Assembly: GCA_041486365.1 (NCBI GenBank)
Contig: JBGPLH010000219.1
Coordinates: 1-5,736, forward strand
Direction of reading: 5' to 3'
Source: JBGPLH01 sp041486365 [NCBI: Thermodesulfobacteriota bacterium]
Lineage (GTDB): Bacteria > JAUYMQ01
DNA length: 5,736 bases
A program made the position numbers and the translations under genes. The notes under the pieces are model-generated. The model had not been told where the DNA came from, made no database searches, and was given only the letters and a program-made list of their open reading frames with translations. Of this stretch, positions 611 through 5,669 are shown piece after piece (positions within the stretch are counted from its first letter, which is position 1; every line of letters starts with the position of its first letter).

Positions 611-2077
611 TCAGTCCGCCCGGCGGACCTCGAATCGCACGTCCGCCTGCCAGGTGGGCTGCGGGGCAAAGAGAATCAGGAAGCCGCTCTGCCCCTCCGC
701 GGGCAGGGGCGTCGTCGAGGTGAGACTGCCGGAATCCGCATCGAGCTTGCCGGAGAGGGCGGCAAGCGGGCCGAGCCGCGCCGTGCGGCGCTGAAGCGCG
801 CGACCGCTCCGATCGACGAGCACGCCGTCGAGGACCCAGGCTCCCTTCGGCGGCGCCGACCAGCGCGCCCTGCCGGTGACGACGTACAGCGGCGCGGCGC
901 CCTGGCGCCCGACACGGCGGCCTGAAAGATCCTCGAGCCGCAGCGCTGCCTCGCCGCGCGCCGCGCCCCCGGGCCGCACGACCGCGGGGGTCCGCGCGAG
1001 CGGACCTTCGGGAGCGTAGAGCGTGAGCGCGCTCACAAGGGCGATCAGCAAACCGACCGCGAGTGACCCGGCGAGCGTGGCGATGGGGGGCAGGCGGAGC
1101 GGCGGCCGTATCGGGCGCCCGGCCGACGGCATGGGGAGCGAGAGCGACGCATCCGTGAGGATCAGGGGGCGCTTGGCGCTCCGCAGCGCGGACGGGTGCG
1201 CGCGAGAGAAGGCCCTCTGGGCGACATGCGGTCTCGATCCCGACGCGGGCCCGCCCTCGACATGCTGGTCCGAGCCGGGCGAGAGCCGACTTTCAAGGGG
1301 CTGTCCCTGGCTGGGGGAGTGGGGACTCTGGGAAGACACGGGCCGGGCCAGCTCCAGTACGGACTCGGCGTTCGCCCCCGGTTCCGAGAACGCTTGCTGG
1401 ACTTTACTCGGGGAGGCGTCCCGTCCCCCCCTCATCTTGGGCCGCTCCATGTCGAGCTCGAGGGGCTCGCTCTCCCGCGGGCCCTCCACCTCTTCGCTCG
1501 CCCTCAGGGCGTCGTCGACGGAAGCGGGCCTGCTCTCCGTGAAGGAGAGGTGATCCCAGTCGAAGTCCTCGCTCCTCTCCCTGGGATCGCTCGCGGCGAG
1601 CCCGACGATGGGAATTGGCTCCGGAGGAGATCCGTCCGCATCGACGTCGGACGGCGCACCGAAGAGATCTTCCGCGCGCCCGGACCGCTTTCCCCCTTCC
1701 CCCTGGTTCATCTCGGGGGCTGCGGGCGCCTCCGGAGCGCGAAGGGCCGCATCGACCGCACGATCGATCTCGTCGGGATCGAGCGGCCCGATGGGAGTTT
1801 CCACCGAAGGCGCGCCGAAGACCACTTCCTCCGGCGCGGGCGCATTGGCGGCGGACCCGTCAGCGAACTCGGCGACGAACTCGGCGACGGACTCGGCGGC
1901 GGACTCGGCGGCGGAAGCAGGGGACTCGATCGACGCCGATTCGGCCTCCGCGGGTGAGAGCGGTTTCAGCTCGAAGGTGTGCTGGCACTTCGAGCAGCGC
2001 AGCTTCACCCCGGCGGACCGTAGGCGCCTGCCATCGAGCTTGAAGCGCGTGTGGCAATTTTCGCAGGAGACGATCAT
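611..2077 (-). CDS. Zinc-ribbon, single-pass membrane protein with DUF3426-like C-terminus
   Basis: The 488-residue product begins with a zinc ribbon of the MJ0042 type: C5-x2-C8, then C28-x2-C31, in a context typical of that family (TRFKLDGRRL... KLRCSKCQHTF). Residues 40-325 are an acidic, Pro/Ser/Ala-rich linker of low complexity, probably disordered. One membrane helix follows (about 332-354), with Arg-rich flanks before it, which places the zinc ribbon and linker in the cytoplasm. The C-terminal domain (about 375-488) contains LYVVTGRARW, a GVLVDRSGRAL segment and a final FEVRRAD. This beta-rich pattern resembles the DUF3426 domain that often pairs with this ribbon in Deltaproteobacteria; that match is from memory. 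Function is unknown; membrane-anchored sensing or scaffolding is a guess. ATG 2077 is chosen because the ribbon starts immediately after it. Its Shine-Dalgarno is weak (AGCGGAA). It converges with tatA and diverges from the ATPase operon. Confidence 0.85.
   Translation of the reverse strand: MIVSCENCHTRFKLDGRRLRSAGVKLRCSKCQHTFELKPLSPAEAESASIESPASAAESAAESVAEFVAEFADGSAANAPAPEEVVFGAPSVETPIGPLDPDEIDRAVDAALRAPEAPAAPEMNQGEGGKRSGRAEDLFGAPSDVDADGSPPEPIPIVGLAASDPRERSEDFDWDHLSFTESRPASVDDALRASEEVEGPRESEPLELDMERPKMRGGRDASPSKVQQAFSEPGANAESVLELARPVSSQSPHSPSQGQPLESRLSPGSDQHVEGGPASGSRPHVAQRAFSRAHPSALRSAKRPLILTDASLSLPMPSAGRPIRPPLRLPPIATLAGSLAVGLLIALVSALTLYAPEGPLARTPAVVRPGGAARGEAALRLEDLSGRRVGRQGAAPLYVVTGRARWSAPPKGAWVLDGVLVDRSGRALQRRTARLGPLAALSGKLDADSGSLTSTTPLPAEGQSGFLILFAPQPTWQADVRFEVRRAD
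1865..1912. repeat. 12-bp tandem repeat inside the zinc-ribbon gene
   Basis: Four consecutive 12-bp units lie here: two of GAACTCGGCGAC, then two of GGACTCGGCGGC (plus-strand reading). On the coding minus strand they give residues 56-71 of the linker, AAES twice then VAEF twice. Because the unit is a multiple of three, copy-number change by slippage would alter linker length without breaking the frame. Confidence 0.8.
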
Positions 2078-2101
2078 ATTCCGCTGTCGCGCATGAGCAG
2101 G

Positions 2102-2117
2102 GCCGGCAAGCGCCGGC
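2102..2117. repeat. Short GC hairpin in leader of zinc-ribbon gene
   Basis: GCCGGC occurs twice (2102-2107 and 2112-2117) around a four-base AAGC loop, giving a 6-bp GC-only stem. It lies about 25 nt upstream of the minus-strand start at 2077, so it would fold in that gene's leader if transcription starts further upstream. In DNA this rich in G and C such a hairpin can arise by chance. Confidence 0.3.
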
Positions 2118-2166
2118 AGGCCCCCGGGCAGGGGTTTCCCCCCGGATTCCCCAATTTCGCCGATGG

Positions 2167-2205
2167 CCTTATGGATCGGTCGCTGTTGCCGGATTCTTTA
2201 TAAGG
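2167..2205. promoter_or_regulatory. Inverted repeat with TATA-like box in divergent intergenic region
   Basis: CCTTAT (2167-2172) and ATAAGG (2200-2205) form a 6-bp inverted repeat with 27 bases between the arms. An inner CGG (2177-2179) and CCG (2189-2191) could pair as well. The right arm overlaps TTTATAAG (2197-2204), the only AT-rich patch near the operon and a candidate -10 box about 50 nt before the first ATPase start. The hexamer 17 bases upstream (TCGGTC) is a poor -35, so either an activator or an alternative sigma factor is involved, or this is not the promoter. Confidence 0.3.
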
Positions 2206-2253
2206 ACGCCTCTCCGACCGCGTGGGCCGCCGAGGGGTTCAGGGGATGGCACG

Positions 2254-3279
2254 ATGGCAGCTTCCCTCCTGGACATGCGCCTTCTGCTCGTCACGGGGAA
2301 GGGCGGCGTCGGGAAAACCACGGTCTGCGCCTCCCTGGCGCTCCAGGCCGCCAAGCGCGGAAAGCGCGTGCTCCTCGTGGAGGTGGCCCCCCGCGAGCAC
2401 TTCACCCGGCTCCTGGGCGCACCGGAGGGCGGCCACACCGAGCACCCGGTCGCCGAGAACGTCTGGGCGCTCAACCTCGACCCGGTGCTCGCGCTGGAGG
2501 AGTACCTCCAGACACAGCTTCACGTCCGGGCCGTCGTCCGGATGATCATGGGCAACCCGGTCTTCCGGCGGCTCGTGAACGTGGCCCCGGGCTGGCGCGA
2601 CCTCATCACGCTGGGTAAGGTCTGGCACCTCGAGCGCCAGCAGGATCCCCGCACCGGCCGCCCGAAGTACGACATCTTCATCGTCGACGCCCCCGCGACG
2701 GGGCAGGGGCTCGGTTTCCTGCGCACGCCCCAGGCCTTCGTCGAGGCGGTGCGGTTCGGCCCCGCCAAGACCCACAGCGAGTGGGTGCGTGACCTGATCG
2801 AGGATCCGGCGCGCACGCGGCTCATCCTGGTGACGCTCCCGGAGGAGCTTCCGGTGAACGAGACGATCGAGATGGCGCGCGCGCTGCGCGAAAGGATCCG
2901 GGTCCCCTTCGAGCACGTGGTGGTGAACGCCGTCGCGCCCAAGCTCTTCACCGACCGGGAGGCGAAGGAGCTCAGGGCGCTGGGGGAGGATAGGGATCGC
3001 TCGTCGCTCCTCGCATCCGCGCTCGGGGACGATGCGCGGCTCGAGGACCTGCTCGGCGCCGCCGACGCCGCGATGAGCCGGCGCGCGCTTCACGAGCATC
3101 ACCTCCGGCGCCTGCGTGCCCACCTCGGCCGCCCCGCCCGGGGCGGCGCCGCGAATCAGGCGGCGAAGACGCTGATCGAGCTCCCGTTCATCTACCGTTC
3201 GTCGCTCTCCATCGATGACCTGCGCGGCCTCGGGGAGATCCTCGAGACCGGTGGAAAGGGGCCCTCCGGTGCGACTTGA
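2254..3279 (+). CDS. Get3/ArsA-family ATPase, Rv3679 (BagA)-like subunit
   Basis: The 341-residue cytosolic P-loop ATPase has a full deviant Walker A, TGKGGVGKTT (14-23), with signature lysine K16 and catalytic-loop K21. After strand 2, where Get3 and ArsA have STDPA, it reads LVEVAPREHF (41-50), so the switch I aspartate is replaced by A45. Switch II is intact in part, VDAPATG (144-150) with D145. The later TLPEELPVNETIEM (194-207) matches the family's adenine-side loop. There is no CxxC zinc motif and no ArsA-type metal-site cysteines. From memory, mycobacterial Rv3679 shows the same GKGG(x)GK plus LLVEV pattern, so I place it in that group rather than with arsenite pumps. Start: ATG 2254 has AGGGGA (2241-2246) seven bases upstream; M8 is the alternative. 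Its end overlaps the next gene by 11 nt. Likely role: non-hydrolysing partner in a heterodimer that handles membrane-protein clients (inferred). Confidence 0.88.
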   Translation: MAASLLDMRLLLVTGKGGVGKTTVCASLALQAAKRGKRVLLVEVAPREHFTRLLGAPEGGHTEHPVAENVWALNLDPVLALEEYLQTQLHVRAVVRMIMGNPVFRRLVNVAPGWRDLITLGKVWHLERQQDPRTGRPKYDIFIVDAPATGQGLGFLRTPQAFVEAVRFGPAKTHSEWVRDLIEDPARTRLILVTLPEELPVNETIEMARALRERIRVPFEHVVVNAVAPKLFTDREAKELRALGEDRDRSSLLASALGDDARLEDLLGAADAAMSRRALHEHHLRRLRAHLGRPARGGAANQAAKTLIELPFIYRSSLSIDDLRGLGEILETGGKGPSGAT

Positions 3280-4468
3280 GTCGCTCCTCGAGGAGAAGCG
3301 GATCGTCGTGTGCTGCGGGAGCGGCGGCGTGGGGAAGACCACCATCGCGGCGGCCCTGGCGATCCGGGCCGCGGCGTCGGGGCGCCGCACGCTGGTGCTC
3401 ACCATCGATCCCGCGCGCCGGCTCGCCAACGCGCTCGGCGTCTCGGTGCTCGGCAACGAGGTGCGGAAGATCCCGCCGCGCAAGTTCGCCGCGGCGGGCA
3501 TCCCCCTGAAGGGGGAGCTGCACGCCATGATGCTGGACACCAAGCGCACCTTCGACGATATCGTGGAGCGCTTCGCGCCGAGCGAGGATATCCGCGACGC
3601 GATCCTCGGGAATGCGATCTACCAGCAGCTCTCCGACACCCTGGCGGGCAGCCGGGAGTACATGGCGATGGAAAAGCTCTACGAGCTCCACGCCGAGGGG
3701 GGCTACGACCTGATCGTGCTCGATACGCCGCCCACGAAGCACGCGCTGGATTTCCTCGATGCCCCCGACCGGATCATGGACTTTCTCGGCGGCGGCGTGG
3801 TGCGCCTCATGGTGAAGCCCTACCTGCTCGCGGGCCGGGTCGGCTTCAAGGTCTTCCGGCGTGGAGCATCGGGCGTCTTCTCCATCCTCGAGAAGGTGAC
3901 GGGAATGGAGTTCCTGAAGGATCTTTCGGACTTCATCCTTTCCTTCGAAGGGTTGTACGATGGGTTCCGGCAGCGGGCCCGGCGGGTGAAGGCGCTGCTC
4001 GGGCAGGAGGGGACCGGCTTCGTCCTCGTGACCGCTCCCGAGCGGCTCGTGCTGGAGGAGGCGATCTTCTTCTACGAGCAACTCGTGGCCCACAAAATGC
4101 GTGTGGACGCGGTCATCGTGAACAAGGTCCACCTGGCGGCCGGGCACCGGTTCCGCGACTCGGCCTCCCGGCGCCGCGCGCAGGAGTCGGAGGCCGCGCT
4201 GTCCCCCGAGCGGATCGGACGGCTCGCGGGACGGATGGCGGAGGCGCTGGGCGACCCGGCCTTTCGATCCACCGCGGAGAAGCTCCTGCGCAACCTGGTC
4301 CAGCACCAGGTGCTCGCGGGGATGGACGCCCGCAACATCGAGGTCCTGCGGGGGCCACTGGGCGACGGCGTGGGTTTCGTGGAGGTGCCGCTGCTTCCGA
4401 TCGACGTGCACGACTTCGAGGGACTCCAGCTCCTGAACGATCATCTGTTCCAGGCCCAGGCGGCCTGA
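3269..4468 (+). CDS. Get3/ArsA-family ATPase, Rv3680 (BagB)-like subunit
   Basis: The 399-residue P-loop ATPase starts RIVVCCGSGGVGKTTIAAAL (11-30). S18 stands where the signature lysine of GKGGVGKT should be, while K23 is kept. Switch I is intact: LTIDPARRLANALG (44-57) with D47. Switch II is LDTPPTKHALDF (151-162) with D152, and TAPERLVLEEA (255-265) is the adenine-side loop. GELHAMMLDTKRTFD and AGSREYMAMEKL strongly recall mycobacterial Rv3680 (from memory). Residues about 163-235 are helical and rich in hydrophobics, in the position where Get3 forms its client groove. GTG 3269 is chosen over the upstream in-frame ATG 3215 because GGAAAGG (3253-3259) sits before it and the extra 18 residues look non-native. 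The start lies inside the end of the preceding gene, indicating translational coupling. It probably forms a heterodimer with that product and supplies the working ATP site. Confidence 0.9.
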   Translation: MRLESLLEEKRIVVCCGSGGVGKTTIAAALAIRAAASGRRTLVLTIDPARRLANALGVSVLGNEVRKIPPRKFAAAGIPLKGELHAMMLDTKRTFDDIVERFAPSEDIRDAILGNAIYQQLSDTLAGSREYMAMEKLYELHAEGGYDLIVLDTPPTKHALDFLDAPDRIMDFLGGGVVRLMVKPYLLAGRVGFKVFRRGASGVFSILEKVTGMEFLKDLSDFILSFEGLYDGFRQRARRVKALLGQEGTGFVLVTAPERLVLEEAIFFYEQLVAHKMRVDAVIVNKVHLAAGHRFRDSASRRRAQESEAALSPERIGRLAGRMAEALGDPAFRSTAEKLLRNLVQHQVLAGMDARNIEVLRGPLGDGVGFVEVPLLPIDVHDFEGLQLLNDHLFQAQAA

Positions 4469-4484
4469 GGACCCGGACGGACCC

Positions 4485-5669
4485 ATGGCCCGCCAGATGC
4501 GAATCATCCTGTACACGGGCAAGGGAGGCGTCGGAAAGACAACCCTCTCGGCGATGACGGCCGTGCGCGCCGCGCAGCTCGGCCACCGCACGATCGTGAT
4601 CTCCACGGACGCCGCCCACAGCCTCGCCGACTCGCTGGACGTGCCGATCGGCCCCGAGCCCACGAAGGTGGCCGAGAACCTCTGGGCCCAGGAGCTCGAC
4701 GTGAACCGCGAGCTCTTCCTCCACTGGGACAAGATCCACCGGTACCTGACCGACTTCCTCCGGCGGCAGGGCTTCGAGGACGTGATCGCGGAGGAGATGG
4801 CCATCCTCCCCGGCATGGAGGAGCTCTTCAGCCTCCTCAAGCTCAAGGAGTACTCCGAGTCGGGGGAGTACGATCTCGCGGTGATCGACTGCGCGCCGAC
4901 GGGGAGCACCGTGCGCATGCTCTCCTTTCCGGAGGTGGCGGGCTGGTACATGGACCGGCTCTTCCACATCGAGAAGAAGATCATGAAGGCCATCAAGCCC
5001 ATGGCCGAGCGCATCGTGCGCGTGCCGCTCCCCACGGACGAGGTGTACGACAACGTCGAGCGGATCTACGGGCGGCTCAAGGGGATGAAGGAGCTGCTCA
5101 GCGATCCGCAGCACACCTCGATCCGGCTCGTGATCAACCCGGAGCGGATGGTGATCAAGGAGAGCCAGCGTGCCCTCACGTACCTCTCGCTGTACGGGTT
5201 CCCCGTCGACGCCGTCTTCGCGAACCGGATCCTCCCGCCCAGCGTCGACGACACGTACCTCGCGGGCTGGCGCGATATCCAGGCCGAGCACATGAAGACG
5301 GCGCACGCGTGCTTCTCACCGATCCCGATCTTCGAGGTTCCCATGTTCCCCCGGGAGATCGGCGGGCTCGAATTCCTCGCGGAGGCCGCACGGGGCGTAT
5401 TCAGCGAAGGAGACCCCACCGACGTCCACTACAAGGAGAAGGTGATCGAGATCGCCAAGAAGAACGGGGAGTACCGGATGAGCATCCACCTGCCCTTCGC
5501 GGAGAAGGGAAACGTGGAGCTGTGGGTGAAGGGGGACGATCTCACTATCCGGGTGGACCAGGTGAAGCGGTCGATCCGGCTCCCCCGGGCGCTCAGCGGC
5601 AGGGCCGTCCGGAGCGCGAAGCTCGAGAACGGGCGCTTCGCGATCATCTTCGAGGGAGGAGCCGGATGA
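4485..5669 (+). CDS. Get3/ArsA-family ATPase with C-terminal HSP20-like domain (Get3d-like)
   Basis: The 394-residue product has all ATPase motifs intact: Walker A TGKGGVGKTT (11-20) with K13 and K18, switch I STDAAHSL (40-47) with D42, switch II IDCAPTGST (134-142) with D135, and the adenine-side loop NPERMVIKESQRA (218-230). After the NTPase fold, residues 328-390 (GEYRMSIHLPF... VELWVKGDDLTIRV... LENGRFAIIFEG) form a small beta-rich HSP20/alpha-crystallin-like domain, as in Pfam ArsA_HSP20 and Get3d proteins. Only C136 and C276 are present, so there is no CxxC zinc clasp as in eukaryotic Get3. Start ATG 4485 follows the previous stop by 16 nt; its Shine-Dalgarno is weak (GAGGA at 4467-4471, distant), and M5 is an alternative. 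It can plausibly work as a homodimer, unlike its two degenerate neighbours. Role inferred: ATP-driven chaperone or targeting factor for hydrophobic clients. Confidence 0.92.
   Translation: MARQMRIILYTGKGGVGKTTLSAMTAVRAAQLGHRTIVISTDAAHSLADSLDVPIGPEPTKVAENLWAQELDVNRELFLHWDKIHRYLTDFLRRQGFEDVIAEEMAILPGMEELFSLLKLKEYSESGEYDLAVIDCAPTGSTVRMLSFPEVAGWYMDRLFHIEKKIMKAIKPMAERIVRVPLPTDEVYDNVERIYGRLKGMKELLSDPQHTSIRLVINPERMVIKESQRALTYLSLYGFPVDAVFANRILPPSVDDTYLAGWRDIQAEHMKTAHACFSPIPIFEVPMFPREIGGLEFLAEAARGVFSEGDPTDVHYKEKVIEIAKKNGEYRMSIHLPFAEKGNVELWVKGDDLTIRVDQVKRSIRLPRALSGRAVRSAKLENGRFAIIFEGGAG
5466..5654 (+). other. HSP20/alpha-crystallin-like domain of the third ATPase
   Basis: This encodes residues 328-390, separated from the NTPase core by a charged helix (about 315-327). 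It shows alternating strands with LPF, LWVKGDDLTIRVD and RSIRLPRAL, the last like the RxxxLP element of small heat-shock proteins. Known examples of this fusion are the Get3d-type proteins of cyanobacteria, Chlorobi and plastids. Confidence 0.75.

Follow-up and report, generated by a model that had tools for sequence, protein, structure and literature searches.

In Get3-type ATPases, a second lysine of the Walker A motif (the signature lysine) crosses the dimer interface and aids catalysis, and the switch-I aspartate aligns the attacking water (PMC10248533, a paper on Get3d). The same fold occurs in BagA and BagB from Mycobacterium tuberculosis (Rv3679-Rv3680; PDB IDs: 6bs3, 6bs4, and 6bs5), two adjacent ATPases in which BagA keeps the signature lysine and has lost the aspartate (motifs GKGGTGKST and VEVEGRQ), whereas BagB shows the reverse (GAGGVGKTT and TIDPAKR). 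Entry 6bs3 is titled 'ADP-bound bacterial Get3-like A and B in Mycobacterium tuberculosis'. Two papers tie the mycobacterial pair to tolerance of glycerol and nitric oxide (PMC10597346) and to streptomycin survival screens (PMC12216072). The window considered here, i.e., the whole 5,736-nucleotide stretch of contig JBGPLH010000219.1 from a Thermodesulfobacteriota bacterium (assembly GCA_041486365.1), consists of three adjacent Get3/ArsA-fold genes on the forward strand together with their flanks; these open reading frames are referred to as ORF1, ORF2, and ORF3 (Table 1). ORF1 (BagA-like) and ORF2 (BagB-like) repeat the mycobacterial motif pattern. An obligate heterodimer with a single composite catalytic site, located at BagB, is the best explanation of the sequence data (probability roughly 0.8), because it accounts for residue conservation, co-occurrence, copy number, and a natural fusion of the two genes.

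ORF1 retains the signature lysine (K16) and carries an alanine (A45) at the position of the catalytic aspartate, while ORF2 has a serine (S18) instead of the signature lysine and retains the aspartate (D47). These four residues had been reported in the first-pass annotation of the window, and re-reading of the codons showed all of them to be correct. As the switch-I stretches of the two proteins (LLVEVAPREHF in ORF1 and LVLTIDPARRL in ORF2) align without a gap, A45 occupies the position of D47. The ordinary Walker A lysine is kept in both chains (K21 and K23). Given the roles of the lysine and the aspartate in Get3, the ORF2 pocket would combine K16 of ORF1 with D47 and K23 of its own chain, and the ORF1 pocket would have neither the signature lysine nor the aspartate. 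All five domains with this fold that served as controls (ORF3, its relatives L101 and L102, and both ArsA halves of L103) keep the signature lysine as well as the switch-I aspartate. With the controls intact, and with the asymmetry seen again both in hundreds of homologous sequences and in the solved pair of M. tuberculosis, it is beyond what chance would be expected to produce.

The homologues come from 337 loci pooled from one contig scan, genome searches, and picked regions. The loci are a non-random sample: 80 were the best of the contig scan, others were the 5-30 best matches from each genome search, and further ones include 40 hand-picked as divergent or multi-copy and 20 second copies. 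They were scored with a BagA profile of 22 rows and a BagB profile of 25 rows, and all counts were deduplicated, which left 238 BagA sequences (6 unreadable at the motif) and 246 BagB sequences (2 cut before the motif). L098, which scored as BagA and is actually ArsA, was dropped from the BagA set. All 232 readable BagA sequences have the signature lysine. The equivalent position of BagB contains neither lysine nor arginine in any of 244 sequences (Ser in 162, Ala in 41, Pro in 24, Thr in 12, Leu in 3, and Gln and Gly in 1 each), while the Walker lysine, the threonine next to it, the switch-I aspartate, and the proline after the aspartate are invariant (244/244). The residues serving BagA's own site are more variable: the Walker A position is Lys in 222, Arg in 7, and Ser in 3 of the 232 sequences, and the switch-I position is Asp in 41, the remainder having Glu, Asn, Gly, Ala, His, Ser, Thr, Arg, Val, Gln, or Lys. 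In FastTree phylogenies built without the motif columns (230 BagA and 240 BagB sequences), the fewest changes required in BagA are 0 at the signature lysine, 8 at the Walker lysine, and 49 at the switch-I position (11 of them between Asp and another residue); in BagB, they are 0 at the Walker lysine, 0 at the aspartate, and 51 at the signature position, all among residues other than lysine. The conserved residues are thus those that the composite BagB site would need, and those of BagA's own site drift; selection of such kind points to catalysis. The single complete composite site proposed in the first-pass annotation is in agreement with these counts.

Its corollary, i.e., that the lysine and aspartate losses co-occur in every genome, does not hold. 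The annotation had itself named losses that do not co-vary among homologues as a finding against its reading, and this is what the homologues show: the BagB lysine is absent from 244/244 sequences, yet 41 BagA proteins keep the aspartate. The one-site model survives, because a BagA site that receives no lysine from BagB stays incomplete with or without the aspartate. For the most part, therefore, the earlier mechanistic conclusion was right. Aspartate loss was considered as a defining feature of BagA and was rejected owing to the same 41 proteins. As read from the alignments, the fixed part of the arrangement is the missing lysine of BagB together with the kept lysine of BagA, and the loss of the BagA aspartate is a later, variable decay.

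The three BagA proteins with serine in place of the Walker lysine (L250, L253, and L256; GKGGVGSST) retain the signature lysine. Their genomes (G190, G272, and G315) contain three bagAB pairs each. BagA-like sequences scoring less than 150 bits were not counted, namely L154, the partner of L089, and fragmented sequences in L060 and L202. All four carry the signature lysine: L154 (143 bits) contains GKGGVGRSS, and the partner of L089 (121 bits) contains GKGGVGKTT and has Asp as its switch residue. The remaining matches of 60-150 bits correspond to ORF3-type proteins or to pieces lacking the P-loop.

The pair might also be a static scaffold of two pseudo-ATPases, in which neither site hydrolyses usefully and both nucleotides are structural. 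No site obtains a full residue set from one chain, and the solved entry listed is ADP-bound and shows no turnover here, as such a scaffold would allow. It is nevertheless improbable in view of the pattern of constraint, since the Walker lysine and threonine, the switch-I aspartate, and the switch-II aspartate of BagB are unchanged in 240-244 sequences and the BagA signature lysine in 230-232, while the residues of BagA's own site drift. In addition, the M. tuberculosis complex is reported to have ATPase activity. Hydrolysis at both sites appears a little less probable again. It would require E43 (or the aspartate, where kept) to stand in for the catalytic aspartate and another BagB residue to stand in for the lysine. 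Glutamate is found at the E43 position in 208 out of 233 readable BagA sequences (L098 dropped), most BagA proteins have the Walker lysine and some the aspartate, as counted above, and the pocket retains the switch-II aspartate and the adenine-site asparagine, all of which would suit a second working site. However, the switch-I position has accommodated at least 12 residue types, and the Walker lysine has been lost at least 8 times, so that the constraint for a working BagA site is weak, and none of the 244 BagB proteins offers a lysine or arginine at the signature position. E43 lies two residues ahead of the lost catalytic aspartate; as a guess, it may hold magnesium or nucleotide in the silent BagA site.

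Occurrence of the two genes was followed by running both models on the same genomes (E up to 1e-30 for BagB, and up to 1e-40 or 1e-30 for BagA). Among 445 genomes, 271 contain both genes, 173 contain neither, and one (G432) contains a BagB fragment running into a contig end and no BagA, in accordance with the obligate pair proposed earlier. Both genes are present in 136/146 genomes of Myxococcota (the phylum of Anaeromyxobacter, G007), the other 10, the same for both models, having neither. In the phylum to which the Thermoleophilaceae genome G001 belongs, 98/246 genomes, identical for the two models, have both and 148 have neither; in the group of L001 (G005), both occur in 7/7; and in the group of L013 (G008), both occur in 30/46, with 15 having neither and G432 accounting for the last. 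In the G006 group, BagB was detected in one of two genomes, and this genome also has BagA. Copy numbers of BagA and BagB match in 259/272 genomes overall: 128/136 in Myxococcota (approximately 60 expected under shuffling), 95/98 in the G001 phylum, 7/7 in the G005 group, and 29/31 in the G008 group. As the genomes are related, these counts do not represent independent events. BagA and BagB are each present in four copies in the Myxococcota genomes G126, G127, G136, and G148, where the bagAB pair has been duplicated as a unit.

At four loci (L008, L027, L033, and L042), BagA is not adjacent to BagB, and in all four genomes it is located on another contig. A stand-alone BagB was rejected on this ground, the G432 case being a contig-end fragment. 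It is very improbable that BagB forms a homodimer or binds another partner and that BagA is a separate protein linked by chance: linkage alone does not force pairing, as the unlinked loci illustrate, but co-occurrence lacks a clear exception in the 445 genomes, copy numbers are matched, a natural fusion and the solved complex 6bs3 exist, and the signature lysine would be missing altogether from a homodimer of BagB.

The fusion is located in L241 of genome G358 (1362-3377, - strand), where a single frame of 672 residues joins a BagA half to a BagB half. The BagA half has GKGGVGKTT and Tyr at the switch-I position, and the BagB half has GTGGVGKTT and TVDPAKRL, i.e., threonine at the signature position with the aspartate kept. 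It is one case only, and its profile scores are weak (158 and 162 bits). The predicted model of the fusion superimposes over both halves onto closed ArsA (PDB ID: 9nbo; 473 residues, root-mean-square deviation 4.5, Z 18.7) and somewhat more poorly onto open ArsA (PDB ID: 9nbl; 450 residues, root-mean-square deviation 5.7). Genome G358 additionally carries a separate pair, L240.

ORF1 and ORF2 are, as judged by profile and structure matches, homologues of M. tuberculosis BagA (Rv3679) and BagB (Rv3680), respectively. The best PDB matches are 6bs3_A for ORF1 (E 1.3e-28) and 6bs3_B for ORF2 (E 6.1e-71), and the AlphaFold model of ORF1 (predicted local distance difference test score, pLDDT, 90.4) is structurally closest to 6bs3_A (Z 31.4, 310 residues). 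Among NCBIfam families, BagA NF053622 is the top match of ORF1 (160 bits, cut-off 400) and BagB NF053621 that of ORF2 (342 bits, cut-off 521); as both scores are under the cut-offs, the proteins are named BagA-like and BagB-like and are placed outside the mycobacterial equivalog. All three proteins of the window surpass the gathering score of Pfam PF02374 (24.3 bits; Table 1). The Get3/TRC40 cut-off of TIGR00345 (135 bits) is reached by ORF3 (269.3), ORF1 (105.2) and ORF2 (103.3) being below it; the latter two also miss the ArsA cut-off of TIGR04291 (650 bits) with scores of 66 and 58, and neither chain has the lysine and the aspartate together. In a quick tree of 61 rows, the BagB and BagA clades (Shimodaira-Hasegawa-like approximate likelihood ratio test, SH-aLRT, 99 and 97) are separate from ORF3, its relatives, and ArsA; the branch separating the 5 Get3/ArsA rows is weak (SH-aLRT 46), and the fused L241 row, trimmed from its BagA half onward, groups with BagA. 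M. tuberculosis BagB and ORF2 share approximately 45% identity, and the identity of BagA and ORF1 is lower. The position of the lost aspartate is occupied by Glu in M. tuberculosis BagA and by Ala in ORF1, and the window differs further in having a third Get3-like gene downstream. The pair is therefore not new in kind, since a related heterodimer is already known and solved, and its novelty is modest. What is added here, as far as sequence comparison can tell, is the one-site arrangement as a rule across several bacterial groups. A full-text search directed at the pair and at one-site heterodimers, with most subscription papers outside its reach, found no paper dealing with the lysine/aspartate asymmetry, and unpublished status is not claimed.

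Several points weigh against the one-site heterodimer. With Asp at the aligned position in 41/232 BagA proteins, some BagA sites are less degenerate than that of the window. The BagA pocket is not simply dead, because the Walker lysine (222/232) is kept and the switch-II aspartate and the adenine-site asparagine are almost always kept as well. The samples are mutually related and weighted to Actinomycetota and Myxococcota, and the trees are approximate. ORF1 and ORF2 both fall short of the NCBIfam families named after the solved pair, and the model of the L241 fusion is of middling confidence (pLDDT 64.7, predicted template modelling score 0.59). In M. tuberculosis, the ATP-binding motifs of both subunits are reportedly required in vivo; this fits a lysine acting in trans and also fits two active sites.

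In the one-site heterodimer, ORF1 and ORF2 would be ancient Get3/ArsA-fold paralogues working only as a 1:1 complex. In the closed, ATP-bound dimer, K16 of BagA would cross the interface into the BagB pocket and complete it together with K23 and D47 of BagB. The BagA pocket, receiving no lysine from BagB (S18) and having lost its aspartate (A45), would probably retain nucleotide without hydrolysis. One ATP might thus be split per cycle, always at BagB, yielding an asymmetric Get3-like clamp. By its fold, the pair would presumably serve as a chaperone or in targeting rather than as an arsenite pump. A broader proposal can be considered slightly better than evenly balanced: BagA and BagB would be widespread, strictly one-site ATPases of at least four phylum-level groups, in which the division of roles, one chain donating the lysine and the other being catalytic, arose once, before the groups parted, and was never undone (232 BagA and 244 BagB), while the unneeded positions changed dozens of times. 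The result would be an obligate asymmetric Get3 machine, with the nucleotide of the dead site acting as a fixed lever and one-sided ATP splitting giving the clamp a direction absent from homodimeric Get3.

ORF2 starts with GTG and overlaps ORF1 by 11 bases. ORF3, directly 3' of bagB, is, on its motifs and domain matches, a canonical Get3/ArsA-HSP20 ATPase with the signature lysine and the switch-I aspartate both intact, and is probably a neighbour outside the heterodimer. No relatives of ORF3 scoring above 100 bits were found beside bagAB within the flanks (approximately 1.5-5 kb; more distant neighbours would escape); those above 100 bits sit only on separate contigs (L099/L102 and L100/L101). 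The window is the sole locus examined that shows such a gene inside the flanks. Neighbours of bagAB, inspected by eye at 14 loci, are not conserved and gave no function. At the Anaeromyxobacter locus L010, bagAB is adjoined by a PhaR-like regulator and a ParA-like protein (642-1241 and 1245-2012; by eye). Upstream of ORF1-ORF3, the window contains a TatA-type gene, as well as a zinc-ribbon protein (611-2077, - strand), whose ribbon is N-terminal and of the MJ0042 type and whose long middle part is rich in Ala, Glu, and Pro. Positions 1-120 consist of near-identical head-to-tail repeats of approximately 39 bases, rich in ccccggcttcgccgggg (by eye).

Table 1. Coordinates of the Get3/ArsA-fold genes of the window and of their active-site elements
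Feature	Position	Codon	Strand	Basis
ORF1, BagA-like Get3/ArsA-fold ATPase subunit, 341 aa	2254..3279		+	Pfam ArsA_ATPase 102.3 bits
ORF1 P-loop GKGGVGKTT	2296..2322		+	codon reading and homologue alignment
ORF1 K16, signature lysine	2299-2301	AAG	+	codon reading
ORF1 K21, Walker A lysine	2314-2316	AAA	+	codon reading
ORF1 switch I	2380..2388		+	codon reading
ORF1 E43	2380-2382	GAG	+	codon reading
ORF1 A45, at the catalytic Asp position	2386-2388	GCC	+	codon reading
ORF2, BagB-like Get3/ArsA-fold ATPase subunit, 399 aa	3269..4468		+	Pfam ArsA_ATPase 111.2 bits
ORF2 P-loop GSGGVGKTT	3317..3343		+	codon reading and homologue alignment
ORF2 S18, replacing the signature lysine	3320-3322	AGC	+	codon reading
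ORF2 K23, Walker A lysine	3335-3337	AAG	+	codon reading
ORF2 D47, switch-I catalytic Asp	3407-3409	GAT	+	codon reading
ORF3, Get3/ArsA ATPase with C-terminal ArsA_HSP20 domain	4485..5669		+	Pfam ArsA_ATPase 310.9 bits, ArsA_HSP20 73 bits

Homologues of BagA and BagB occur in 271 of the 445 surveyed genomes, including 136/146 of Myxococcota. Annotators should label neither of the two genes a stand-alone ATPase or an anion pump. If one site is catalytic and its lysine always comes from the same partner, the pair represents a Get3 machine that naturally has a single site, and what each of the two ATP events of Get3 does, a matter of long debate, would become testable by single residue changes. 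The window pair shares with Get3/TRC40 the fold, the deviant Walker A motif, and the predicted dimer architecture, and the Z scores of the ORF1 model against closed Get3 are 25-28; however, Get3 is homodimeric and both of its sites are complete, whereas the window pair is a predicted heterodimer with one complete site. ArsA similarly combines two paralogous halves as one pseudo-dimer, the arrangement in which the BagA-BagB fusion is modelled; unlike the window pair, the ArsA examined (L103) has the lysine and the aspartate in both halves. Heterodimeric ABC exporters and the SRP-FtsY pair likewise have an interface with two nucleotide sites, of which one is degenerate or composite; these belong to different families, and the likeness is one of principle only.

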